Source: Succinivibrionaceae bacterium (GTDB taxonomy: Bacteria > Pseudomonadota > Gammaproteobacteria > Enterobacterales > Succinivibrionaceae). Taken from it: 32,454 bases of DNA. The notes beneath the pieces are model-generated. The model had not been told where the DNA came from. It saw only the letters and a program-made list of their open reading frames with translations, and made no database searches. Made by a program: the position numbers and the translations under genes. The stretch lies in contig JAILEI010000055.1 in assembly GCA_024688225.1 (NCBI GenBank), positions 1-32,454 of the forward strand. The letters are read 5' to 3'. Shown here piece after piece: positions 1-18,555 of the stretch; positions within the stretch are counted from its first letter, which is position 1, and the number at the start of each line of letters is the position of its first letter.

Positions 1-340
1 TGCCTTCTTCGCCGCAGCTTCCTCTGCCGACTTTTTCGCCGCAGCCTCCTCAGCTGCCTTCCTCGCGGCCGCCTCCTCAGCCGCCTTTTTCGCCGCTTCC
101 TCGGCCGCCTTTTTCGCCGCTTCCTCCGGCGCCTTCCTCGCCGCAGCTTCCTCTGCCGCCTTCCTCGCCGCAGCTTCCTCTGCCGCCTTCCTCGCCGCCG
201 CCTCATCAGCCGCCTGCTTCGCCGCAGCCTCCTCGGCCTCCTTCCTCGCCGCAGCTTCCTCGGCCGCCTTCCTCGCCGCCGCCTCCTCAGCCGCCTGCTT
301 CGCCGCCTCCTCGGCCGCCTGGCTTTCTTCAGCCTTCCCG
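1..340. repeat. Degenerate tandem repeat, 21-24 bp period, coding (AEEAAARK)n
   Basis: Repeated gccttcctcgccgcagcttcctctg-like units; minus-strand translation (A-E-E-A-A-A-R/K-K)n. Confidence 0.85.
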
Positions 341-402
341 GCAACCTGCGCCGCTTCGTCTTTCTTTTTGCCTTTCTTGAACAGGAATGAGAATAGTGAC
401 AT
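1..402 (-). CDS. ftsY: FtsY, SRP receptor; N-terminal part only, truncated by window edge
   Basis: Minus-strand open frame from ATG at 402 to the window edge: [58 protein letters not shown]... An FtsY-like basic N-terminus and Ala/Glu/Lys-rich A domain, divergent from rsmD (classic rsmD-ftsY neighbourhood). The NG GTPase domain is outside the window, so a TolA-like protein is not fully excluded. Confidence 0.7.
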
Positions 403-14970: not shown

Positions 14971-15498
14971 CTACCTGAATCCTTCCTTGAGCACCACCTG
15001 CCCAGTGGCAAGCGAGGCAGGCACATCGATGATGCGCTGGTTTGATGATCCCCGGAAATCGAGATCATAGGAATGCTGGGACTCAACGTATGGCCCGTCG
15101 ACCACTACCTCCAGGCACTTGAGGAACTCCAGGCGGGCAGGATCCGACACCAGCTTGTCAAATGTATACCCAGAATATGCCCAGAGTGAGTAACCCTTCT
15201 CGAGGAGAATCCTCGAGAACACGGTGAGTGCCCGGGACTGGATGAAGGGCTCGCCGCCTGAGAAGGTCACCCCGGAGACCAGGGGACTTTGCCTGATCTC
15301 CTCGTAAATGACCTTAAGCGGCACCTCAATCCCGCCATCGAGCGACTGGGCCTGGGGGTTGTGGCAACCCTTGCAGTGGAATGGGCAGCCCTGGGTGAAG
15401 ACTGTGTAGCGAAAGCCCGGGCCGTCCACAAAGGACTCCGGCACGCAGCCGGCAATCCTCAGGTAGGTGCAATCCAGCAGTCCCAGATCCATGGCCAT
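14971..15498 (-). CDS. nrdG: Anaerobic ribonucleoside-triphosphate reductase activating protein (radical SAM)
   Basis: FTQGCPFHCKGCHNPQAQ (CX3CX2C), VSGVTFSGGEPFIQ; likely start MAMDLGLLDCTYLRIAGCVPES at 15498 (the ORF track extends to 15618, overlapping the small upstream ORF). Confidence 0.93.
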   Translation of the reverse strand: MAMDLGLLDCTYLRIAGCVPESFVDGPGFRYTVFTQGCPFHCKGCHNPQAQSLDGGIEVPLKVIYEEIRQSPLVSGVTFSGGEPFIQSRALTVFSRILLEKGYSLWAYSGYTFDKLVSDPARLEFLKCLEVVVDGPYVESQHSYDLDFRGSSNQRIIDVPASLATGQVVLKEGFR

Positions 15499-15508
15499 CA
15501 GCTTTCCC

Positions 15509-15670
15509 CTAGGAGAGGTGCTGGTGCTTGACGCGATCCTGCACTTCGGCGCGCTTGGCGTTGTTAAAGCGATCCAGGGTGCCCACCAGGTAACCGGTGA
15601 CCCTGCGGATCCGCTCAAACTTTACCCCTTCGCCTACCATGCCATTGCGTTCATGCAACCTGACGACCAT
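15509..15670 (-). CDS. Small glycyl-radical domain protein: detached C-terminal glycyl-radical segment of class III RNR (NrdD)
   Basis: 53-aa ORF not in the supplied track: MVVRLHERNGMVGEGVKFERIRRVTGYLVGTLDRFNNAKRAEVQDRVKHQHLS*. Contains RVTGY glycyl-radical motif and RVKH tail typical of NrdD C-termini. Strong RBS AAGGAGAGAAAACA-ATG. Located between nrdD and nrdG, same strand. Confidence 0.88.
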   Translation of the reverse strand: MVVRLHERNGMVGEGVKFERIRRVTGYLVGTLDRFNNAKRAEVQDRVKHQHLS

Positions 15671-15682
15671 TGTTTTCTCTCC

Positions 15683-15738
15683 TTATTTTAAACAAAAAAC
15701 AATAATAATATATTTATTATATTTATTTAGTTATTATG
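15683..15738. other. Extremely AT-rich spacer between nrdD and the small glycyl-radical ORF
   Basis: ttattttaaacaaaaaacaataataatatatttattatatttatttagttattat; only a few G/C in about 55 bp. Perfect TATAAT on the minus strand at 15716-15721. Confidence 0.75.
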
Positions 15739-15751
15739 CTTGCTGTAGTTC

Positions 15752-18016
15752 CTAGCAGGATCCGATGCAGTCCACCCCCAGCTTGCGGAGGCGCTCAATG
15801 GTCACCCCCTCTCCATCGCGGCGCCCGCACTTGGGGCACACGTCATTAATCACGCCCACGTAGTTGCACACCGGGCAGCGATCCACGGGATGGTTGATTG
15901 AGCCATAGTTCACGCCACAGTCGCGCATGTGCAGGATCACCCGCTCGAAGGCATCGATGTTGCGGGTGAGATCGCCATCCATCTCCACGTAGGAGATGGC
16001 CCCGGCGTTGCACATGGCGTGGAAGGGGCCCTCGATGCTGATCTTGTCCGCCACCCCGATGTTGAAATAGACCGGGACATGGAAACTGTTGGTGTAGTAC
16101 TCGCGATCGGTAACCCCCTTGATGGTGCCGTACTTCTCACGGTCAATCTTGACGAAGCGGCCGGAGAGGCCCTCAGCCGGGGTGGAGAACAGGGAGAAGT
16201 TGAGTCCCGTCTCCTCTGACTTGCGATCATTGAGGTCCCGCATGTGCTGGATGATCTCGTAGCCGAGCTTGCGCGCCTCCTCGCTCTCTCCATGGTGCTT
16301 GCCCACCAGGGCCACCAGGCACTCGGCAAGGCCGATGAAGCCGGTGCTCAGTGAGCCATGCTTGATGATGTCGCGGATCTTGTCGTTGGGATCGAGGCGA
16401 TCCGAGTCAATCCAGATCCCCTGCCCCATGAGGAACGGGTAGTTGAAGACCCGCTTCTCGGCAATGATCTCAAAGCGGTCCAGCAACTGGGTGAACACCA
16501 TGTCCTGCATCCGGTCGAGCGACTCGTAGAAGGCGCTGATGGACCCATGGGCCTCAATGCCCAGGCGCGGCAGGTTGATGGTGGTAAAGGACAGGTTGCC
16601 ACGGCCGGTGATAACCTGCTTGGTCTTGTCATAGACATTGCCAAACACCCTGGTGCGGCACCCCATCACCGCCAGCTCAGTCTCCGGCCGGCCCTCAACG
16701 TAGTACTGCATGTTGTACGGGGCGTCGAGGAAGGAGAAATTGGGGAAGAGGCGCTTTGCCGAGACCTCACAGGCGCGGCGGAACAGGTCGTAGTTGGGGT
16801 CGCCCTTCTTGGTGTTGACGCCATCCTTGACCTTGAAAATCTGCACCGGGAAGATCGGGGTCTCGCCCTCACCCAGGCCGGCGTCAGTGGCATCAAGGAT
16901 GTTGCGGATAATCATGCGCTGCTCGGCAGTGGTGCCGGTGCCATAGTTGATCGAGGAGAAGGGCACCTGGGCGCCAGCGCGGCTCTGCATGGAGTTGAGG
17001 TTGTGGATCAACGCCTCCATGGCCTGGTAGGTCTCACGGTCGGTAAGGCGCAGCGCCTCATTGACGGCATAGTCTGCAGCCCCCTCGAGCTCCTCATCGC
17101 GGATATGGCCTTTCATCAGCTTGAGGATCTCGTTCCTAATGAGATCCTGCGAGGTCTGCTTGAGCACTGATCCCTGGGAGTCGTAGAGGTTCTGCACCAG
17201 TCCCACCAGATCCTTGGTCTCGATGGAATCGTCGCGCAGCACAATCTTGATCACCCGGGAGAGGTGCTTCTCATAGGAGAAGACCACATAGGGCTCGAGA
17301 TCGTACTCGAACATGGGGATGGACTGCCCGCCATGCATGTCATTCTGGTTGGACTGGATGACAATGCAGCACAGCGCCGCCGCGGTCAGGATGGATTGCG
17401 GCTCGCGCAGGAAGCCATGCCCGGTGGAGAACCCGCGCTTGAAGAGGTTCTTGAGCGGAATCTGGCAGCAGTTGATGGTGAGCAGGTAAAAGTCGAGATC
17501 ATGGATGTGGATGTCGCCGTTGGTGTGCGCTAGGGAATGCTCCGGGCGCAGCACGTAGCGCTTCACGAAGTCCTTGGCGCCCTCTGATCCAAAGCGCAGC
17601 ATCATGCCCATCGGGGCATTGGCGTCAATGTTCGCGTTCTCACGCTTGAGGTCCATGTCAGCGGTGGACTTGTTGGTGAGATCACGGTAGATGGTGGTCA
17701 GCTCCTCGTTCTGGTTGCGCACGTTGGTGCGCTGCTGGCGGTAGAGGATGAAGTTCTTGGCCTCATCGGCAAGGCCGTTCTTGATGAGCACCTTCTCAAT
17801 GATGTCCTGGGTGTGCTCAACGGTGGGGGTGATGTTGATCTCGCCCTCAATGACGTCAGTCACCTCCGTGGTAAGGCGGGCCGCGGTCTCCTCGTCAAAG
17901 TCGGTGACCCCATCGTCCGGGTGGACCGAGACCAGCGCCTTCTTGATGGCATTGGTGATCTTGTGCTCGTTGAAGGAGACACGCCGTCCATCACGCTTGA
18001 CGATGAACCTAATCAT
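15752..18016 (-). CDS. nrdD: Anaerobic ribonucleoside-triphosphate reductase large chain lacking the C-terminal glycyl-radical loop
   Basis: 754 aa: N-terminal ATP cone (MIRFIVKRDGRRVSFNEHKITNAI), HTNGDIHIHDLD, AVMGCRTRVFGN, GRGNLSFTTINLPRLG, C-terminal CPVC..CPKC ribbon, then ends GEGVTIERLRKLGVDCIGSC*. No RVxGY in the ORF. Confidence 0.95.
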   Translation of the reverse strand: MIRFIVKRDGRRVSFNEHKITNAIKKALVSVHPDDGVTDFDEETAARLTTEVTDVIEGEINITPTVEHTQDIIEKVLIKNGLADEAKNFILYRQQRTNVRNQNEELTTIYRDLTNKSTADMDLKRENANIDANAPMGMMLRFGSEGAKDFVKRYVLRPEHSLAHTNGDIHIHDLDFYLLTINCCQIPLKNLFKRGFSTGHGFLREPQSILTAAALCCIVIQSNQNDMHGGQSIPMFEYDLEPYVVFSYEKHLSRVIKIVLRDDSIETKDLVGLVQNLYDSQGSVLKQTSQDLIRNEILKLMKGHIRDEELEGAADYAVNEALRLTDRETYQAMEALIHNLNSMQSRAGAQVPFSSINYGTGTTAEQRMIIRNILDATDAGLGEGETPIFPVQIFKVKDGVNTKKGDPNYDLFRRACEVSAKRLFPNFSFLDAPYNMQYYVEGRPETELAVMGCRTRVFGNVYDKTKQVITGRGNLSFTTINLPRLGIEAHGSISAFYESLDRMQDMVFTQLLDRFEIIAEKRVFNYPFLMGQGIWIDSDRLDPNDKIRDIIKHGSLSTGFIGLAECLVALVGKHHGESEEARKLGYEIIQHMRDLNDRKSEETGLNFSLFSTPAEGLSGRFVKIDREKYGTIKGVTDREYYTNSFHVPVYFNIGVADKISIEGPFHAMCNAGAISYVEMDGDLTRNIDAFERVILHMRDCGVNYGSINHPVDRCPVCNYVGVINDVCPKCGRRDGEGVTIERLRKLGVDCIGSC

Positions 18017-18116: not shown

Positions 18117-18152
18117 GACCCAGGAAGGGTGGCACCCTGGGGCCACACCATT

Positions 18153-18184
18153 TTTTTTCATTTAATAACAATCAAATGAAAAAA
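18153..18184. repeat. Perfect 11-bp inverted repeat, candidate operator or hairpin
   Basis: ttttttcattt (18153-18163) N10 aaatgaaaaaa (18174-18184). Confidence 0.6.
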
Positions 18185-18555
18185 GCTAAAAACCTGCTGC
18201 AACCCTTCTTAATCCAAGCACCTTCAAGCAGATATCTCAACTTCGCGCAGCAATGCATGTAAATAGTATCCGCTCCCCAAATATCATCCTGATAATAAAC
18301 ACGTTAAATTTTACCTGAGAAAATTTATGCCCGCGCCAGCATTTACTGGCATGTAACAGAATTTGCAACATGATTCCCTGTCTGCCCCGCGCTGTGGCCA
18401 TGGTCGCTCACCAGCGCGTTACATTTTTAAATAATTTTAATTAATAACAAATAGTAATAATTAAAATGACTGAACCTATGATAAAGGGATGTTTCCTCTG
18501 CAGCTTACCATGGCAGTTTGCTTTCATTTATCCTAGGGGCCTGGAGGGCATGGGC

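Follow-up and report, generated by a model that had tools for sequence, protein, structure and literature searches.

Ribonucleotide reductase (RNR), which makes the building blocks of DNA, is an essential enzyme. Glycyl-radical enzymes are known from the literature as single chains, which O2 destroys by cleavage at the glycine. The class III enzymes (NrdD) of Prevotella copri, phage T4, S. thermophilus and T. maritima consist of an ATP cone, where present, a barrel, an MGCR cysteine, a zinc ribbon and an RxxGY loop, and are accompanied by an adjacent NrdG. In P. copri NrdD the zinc ribbon and the loop form one C-terminal domain, residues 676–739 (PMC11226230). The locus described here has the same parts, but differs from the known class III enzymes in that the radical loop is a separate protein and the main chain ends in a degenerate copy of it.

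Other RNRs are known to be divided. The class I NrdA of phage Aeh1 is split by a mobile element. This fragmented catalytic subunit (PMC3267527) differs from the present case in its class and in that the radical domain is not involved. The split class II enzyme NrdJa/NrdJb of Pseudomonas aeruginosa is, like the locus reported here, an RNR specified by two adjacent genes, and both chains are needed in vivo there; it differs in being of class II and in that the small chain, NrdJb, carries out disulfide exchange and not radical storage. A small free-standing copy of a large enzyme's C-terminal glycyl-radical segment, phage-borne as well as bacterial, is familiar from GrcA/YfiD and T4 Y06I, which are spare parts of pyruvate formate-lyase (PFL). 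Our small protein is of this kind, except that it belongs to NrdD instead of PFL. Spare parts for enzymes other than PFL have been a matter of speculation only (PMC8683613).

The window, that is, the whole stretch of 32,454 nucleotides that was analyzed, carries on its minus strand nrdD, an ORF of 53 codons and nrdG, transcribed in that order. The nrdD body (15752–18016, minus strand) specifies a class III catalytic chain of 754 residues without the glycyl-radical loop. It possesses an ATP cone [PF03477, E 2.3e-18; E values are given in brackets below as well], an NRDD barrel [PF13597 positions 1–532 of 562, 2.6e-181], an MGCRTRV motif and a CPVC...CPKC zinc ribbon, the latter formed by Cys714, Cys717, Cys727 and Cys730 (15827–15877, minus strand) and evident from the translation. 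Cys453 of the MGCR motif (codon 16658–16660, minus strand), the thiyl-radical residue, aligns with Cys416, the catalytic cysteine of P. copri NrdD (PMC11226230). An RxxGY motif is absent from the whole 754-residue body, which stops at a TAG codon. The 53-residue protein (15509–15670, minus strand), for which we use the abbreviation GRD, is a free-standing glycyl-radical subunit and a member of a conserved family; it corresponds to PF13597 positions 532–562 of 562 [4.8e-8], so that the two pieces meet at one position of this model. Much the same division is seen with NCBIfam PRK07111 (746 positions), of which the body covers 1–716 and the small protein 710–744 [2.2e-12], and with the P. copri NrdD chain 8p23, where residues 1–732 of the body are equivalent to residues 5–704 and the small protein to residues 707–738 [1.4e-6]. 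Gly26 in the RVTGY motif of the small protein (codon 15593–15595, minus strand) aligns with the radical Gly711 of P. copri NrdD, the 8p23 chain being offset by 4 residues. NrdG (14971–15498, minus strand; 175 residues) is a radical-SAM activase [TIGR02491, 7.8e-40, above cut-off; PF04055; PF13353].

These matches bear out the earlier note, which had placed the radical loop of a motif-less NrdD in a separate 53-residue ORF: the two proteins are complementary pieces of PF13597, and the small one matches exactly the part of the NrdD C-terminal region that the body lacks. The barrel with its MGCR cysteine, the zinc ribbon and the NrdG activase are those of a class III RNR, and an RxxGY loop is encoded with the enzyme, though not in the same chain. 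Since the loop resides in the adjacent 53-residue protein, we regard the enzyme as a variant class III RNR and not as an ordinary member. Our reading, to which we assign a probability of about 0.93, is a class III RNR whose glycyl-radical domain is a separate, obligatory small subunit.

Two other features of the window were noted. A sub-threshold match to the pan RNA motif (18126–18185, plus strand; 27.6 bits against a gathering score of 36.2) stands upstream of nrdD on the opposite strand and is probably due to chance. The start of a protein built of repeated units (1–402, minus strand) is perhaps a charged repeat preceding a domain which lies beyond the window.

The region between nrdD and the GRD gene (15671–15754, minus strand) contains the TAG stop, three further in-frame TAA codons and the Shine-Dalgarno (SD) sequence TAAGGAG before the ATG, the distance from stop to ATG being 84 nt, in agreement with the ribosome-binding site and independent ORF of the earlier note. 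The two ORFs of the window share a reading frame, and the nrdD gene of T4 holds a group I intron, both of which might favor a single joined protein made by stop readthrough, frameshifting or intron splicing. This is contradicted by the four stops (TAG, TAA, TAA, TAA) that separate the ORFs and by the Rfam search, in which no group I or group II intron family was found in the gap. Among 95 split pairs drawn from the window's family and from other phyla, moreover, the gap ranges from 4 to 1258 nt and the relative frames 0, 1 and 2 occur 38, 36 and 21 times. The chosen GRD starts are all ATG. An SD sequence of 5 nt or more precedes 76% of them, as against 6% of ATGs in general, a difference biased upward because the choice was made partly by SD. 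In two phage contigs, L336 (with overlapping ORFs) and L358, the GRD gene comes before nrdD, an order which readthrough, frameshifting or an intron cannot explain, and orphan copies of the gene occur at unlinked loci. We consider a joined protein highly improbable. The conservation of the pair, together with the varied gaps, the use of all three frames, the gene's own ATG and the upstream GRD genes, argues equally against a sequencing error, which is implausible also in view of the dozens of assemblies with differing frames and spacings, among them that of a single-contig relative, G031.

The window's own genome, that of an anaerobic gut bacterium, is a draft of 2.05 Mb in 208 contigs, 95.8% complete, and contains one NrdD body and two free tails. 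In this draft we found neither a second NrdD nor a class I/II large subunit (PF02867), and hence no NrdJ-type large chain; the split enzyme is the only detectable RNR of the genome. G031, a single contig of 3.47 Mb, likewise has a split NrdD and no other NrdD or class I/II RNR. As neither genome yielded an alternative, the split enzyme must work, though for the window's draft taken alone an RNR in the missing part is conceivable. The obligatory role which the earlier note had given to the small radical subunit is therefore well supported genetically, and the second intact nrdD that would have spoken for pseudogenization did not turn up elsewhere in the draft genome.

A split NrdD occurs in 36 of the 57 genomes of the window's family; in a further genome, G050, a fused NrdD is accompanied by a second, split one. 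PF02867 is absent from 24 of the 36, and 18 of these 24 are at least 90% complete. Two of the entries, G030 and G330, agree in their contigs and coordinates and are apparently one assembly, that of Succinivibrio dextrinosolvens DSM 3072, which suggests that the family is the Succinivibrionaceae. About 15 genomes of the family have an E. coli-type fused NrdD instead, and in the rest of the order every listed NrdD tail lies inside a long fused frame.

That a stop codon precedes the RVTGY motif would also be expected of a decaying NrdD, in which a stop mutation had cut off the tail and the remainder persisted as a surviving fragment. Selection tells otherwise. Within the family the median dN/dS (Nei-Gojobori, unsaturated pairs only) is 0.045 for tails beside nrdD, 0.088 for orphan tails, 0.040 for the zinc ribbon of the body and 0.086 for the last 18 body codons; the adjacent tails are under strong purifying selection. 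Body ends and tails are both conserved within the family, and across 20 diverse sequences the small protein shows 19 invariant positions, including RR, TGY and RFN. With 95 loci and selection of this strength the split pair is not a product of chance. The recurrence of the same architecture in dozens of species, the very low dN/dS of both pieces, the start codon and SD sequence of the small gene, and the position of the enzyme as sole RNR, both here and in G031, leave decay with practically no probability.

A short degenerate copy of the glycyl-radical segment (GEGVTIERLRKLGVDCIGSC), which had escaped the earlier note, forms the C-terminal end of the body. This degenerate start of the domain (RDGEGVTIERLRKLGVDCIGSC; 15755–15820, minus strand) was recognized by register alignment and by profile comparison with shuffled sequences, and has Val at the position of the radical glycine. 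After the zinc ribbon split bodies read (D/E)GEGVxxExL..., which aligns with GEGVKFERIRR of the small protein. One register with GEGVKFERIRRVTGYLVG is found in 89 of 91 split pairs, with a mean z against shuffles of 5.1 in the family and 3.7 in other phyla, and, once two broken fused ends are set aside, the free-tail profile exceeds 5 bits in 20 of 122 body ends versus 4 of 2480 shuffles. In the body and tail alignments (A3 and A5) the bodies were cut at the zinc ribbon, which keeps the degenerate end apart from the real tail. A few split bodies retain a GY in the degenerate segment (L123 KGY, L148 PGY); some of the longer ends have it at the radical position and also resemble the end of the tail, as in L148 (GEGVPLEELRKLPGY...LEEFDKVTHP). 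The most economical explanation is a duplication of the 3' end of nrdD with subsequent decay of the attached copy; alternatively, the small subunit may have arisen by convergent recruitment.

Those few split bodies which keep a GY in the degenerate segment could be taken to mean that the body is self-sufficient, through another radical residue near its C terminus, and that the small protein serves for repair alone. Parts with such a role do apparently exist, since free GRDs are found beside fused NrdDs. In the window and the family, however, the aligned position is Val within GVD or GVG, the conserved C-terminal half of the domain is missing from the bodies, and across the 95 loci the GRD gene adjoins the split body. 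We regard a self-sufficient body as very unlikely, if slightly less so than the joined protein discussed above, and retain the obligatory subunit.

A close cysteine pair (CxC, CC or similar) follows the zinc ribbon in 33 of 35 family bodies, 30 of 55 other bacterial bodies and 0 of 21 viral ones. Such C-terminal pairs are reminiscent of the redox tails of class I and II RNRs.

A survey of relatives for the split, proposed in the earlier note, found it in the family and in other phyla: in Clostridia, Bacilli/Mycoplasmatota, Desulfovibrio and Fibrobacter, as well as in phages. Among the best 80 GTDB matches to the small protein, a sample skewed to free tails by its query, split pairs number 59 and fused enzymes 6, and for the other 15 tails the fetched stretch contains no body; the matches derive from Succinivibrionaceae, Clostridia, Lachnospiraceae, Oscillospiraceae, Mogibacterium, Butyricicoccus, Bacilli, Mycoplasmatota, Desulfovibrio and Fibrobacter succinogenes. 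A less biased draw, of 101 genomes from the phylum to which Massiliimalia belongs, gave 52 matches, some 9 of them free-standing. Among 39 positive genomes of the Massiliimalia order 15 have free-standing tails only, 5 a fused NrdD and a free tail, and 17 fused enzymes only. The 21 positive genomes from the class around a Desulfovibrio have, without exception, free-standing tails only. One locus which reads RRTCGYIG (L190) was not counted as split. On a tree of 125 NrdD cores the split and fused states require 8 changes, of which starred branches force 5 or more, and the split NrdDs of the window's family form one clade; it is a quick tree from which neither root nor direction was inferred.

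A second design is seen in L077 (G050:C57), L230 and L343–L353, in which the NrdD bodies lack the ATP cone or are of another subfamily and the GRD, of some 85–100 residues, has an additional N-terminal segment. It implies more than one origin, or more than one remodelling, of the free GRD. Small plasmids of C. difficile, about 10–14 kb in size (NZ_CP033215.1 and similar; L318), carry a fused nrdD together with nrdG, and the tail of this NrdD is 83% identical to the small protein of the window.

Most split genomes of the family contain 1–3 orphan tails in addition. Their positions are conserved within genera, next to unrelated genes, for instance between a BrnQ-like and an MFS-like one (recognized by eye); in the window's own genome the second tail, of 77 residues, follows a citrate-synthase-like gene (L002). 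Longer matches of orphan GRDs to PF13597 487–562 (G031, G046) proved to be spurious, as they read through stop codons. Two Ruminococcus-like genomes (G337, G338) pair a fused NrdD with an orphan tail of about 98 residues that has its own N-terminal extension. Here the client enzyme has a radical glycine of its own, which the body in the window lacks, and if any GRD is an NrdD spare part as GrcA/YfiD is one for PFL, it is most likely an orphan of this type. The orphan copies thus suggest an NrdD counterpart of the PFL spare part, and the extra copies in split genomes probably act as spares or alternative radical subunits. In the split genomes, where the large enzyme lacks a radical glycine, the small part is obligatory, unlike GrcA/YfiD.

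With GrcA/YfiD as a precedent (PMC8683613), the free GRDs, and the orphans above all, might instead serve another glycyl-radical enzyme such as PFL. In the window's own genome, though, we found no PFL or GrcA: PF01228 (Gly_radical, the PFL C terminus) finds only the NrdD body, below cut-off, so that within this assembly PFL is not available as a client of the orphan. The 53-residue protein gave no match to PF01228 at E≤1; the GRDs match the NrdD tail and occur in genomes with an NrdD. Service to PFL is, like the joined protein, highly improbable, and NrdD is the client that we prefer.

In IMG/VR 403 stretches encode relatives of the tail, some of which may be prophages or host DNA. Nearly all of the best 80 are free-standing, with no NrdD body within 4 kb, and the neighbors of several lone viral GRDs match tail fiber, endolysin and virion protein families. 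When the whole enzyme served as the query, 80 phage NrdD loci included 38 fused and 13 split enzymes, the rest being truncated or of other forms. In the cultured Eggerthella phage EL753P1 a tail-like reading frame follows an NrdD that has no tail. Phage T4 carries the PFL spare part Y06I (PMC8683613), which provides a precedent for phage-borne radical parts.

Examples of lone GRDs among viral contigs L238–L317 are L241:3946–4156 and L310:3805–4138, the latter on a 238-kb contig. In L241 (60–6292) the GRD ORF lies just after reverse transcriptase and tail-fiber-like genes and beside a transposase-like gene, and this may be a diversity-generating retroelement region. In EL753P1 (L319, OP172808.1; 650–4084) the NrdD body shows an apparent intein at MGC/RTR, the frame of the GRD ORF breaks between FERIRRI and TGYLTG, and the tail part is annotated as hypothetical or left unannotated.

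Mechanistically, we picture the body (ATP cone, barrel with Cys453 and zinc ribbon) and the 53-residue subunit as separate translation products of one gene cluster, which also encodes NrdG. Homology with the fused enzyme suggests that the small subunit replaces the covalent tail, its RVTGY loop being inserted into the barrel beside Cys453. NrdG would activate it in trans by taking a hydrogen from Gly26, and in each turnover the radical would pass from Gly26 to Cys453 and back. Subunits damaged by O2 might then be exchanged for fresh ones, an attractive scheme because a chain of 53 residues is replaced instead of one of 85 kDa. Binding and activation in trans are argued here by analogy; the replacement of an O2-cleaved segment, an idea of the earlier note, gains indirect support at most from the orphan copies. 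Two AlphaFold runs were made on the readthrough chain, with stops read as glycine and with 6, then 23, fused relatives in the alignment. The body was predicted with mean pLDDT 82 and 86 and pTM 0.81 and 0.82, and the tail, in both runs, with low confidence (pLDDT about 36–68 in blocks of ten). Fold searches mainly confirmed the NrdD body.

A broader history can be proposed, at about even odds. The free GRD would have begun as a duplicated NrdD spare, a state still present in Ruminococcus-type genomes with a fused NrdD and an orphan GRD. The attached copy would then have decayed and left the spare as the sole functional part, in an ancestral clade that spread between phyla. The lone GRDs of phages of anaerobes would serve, during infection, to sustain a host RNR that is split or damaged by O2, and NrdD would be a glycyl-radical enzyme with a routinely exchangeable radical cartridge.

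The chemistry of the enzyme is that of a class III RNR; the subunit plan departs from it. No description of a split class III enzyme or of an NrdD spare part was found in the literature searched on RNR evolution, the P. copri and S. thermophilus structures, RNRdb and GrcA, which was mainly open literature with few subscription journals, and NCBIfam has no curated model of its own for the free tail. The two-chain class III RNR is apparently widespread and undescribed. It contradicts the statement of 2015 that NrdJab is the only split RNR outside viruses (PMC4520616), and it supplies genome-level evidence on the open question of whether radical spare parts exist beyond PFL (PMC8683613). As the sole RNR of its host, it offers a naturally occurring system for separating radical storage from catalysis, and with separable chains activation by NrdG, radical transfer and O2 repair become testable by mixing proteins. 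Many gut anaerobes and phages carry a probably essential protein of about 50 residues which is easily missed in annotations and metabolic models.
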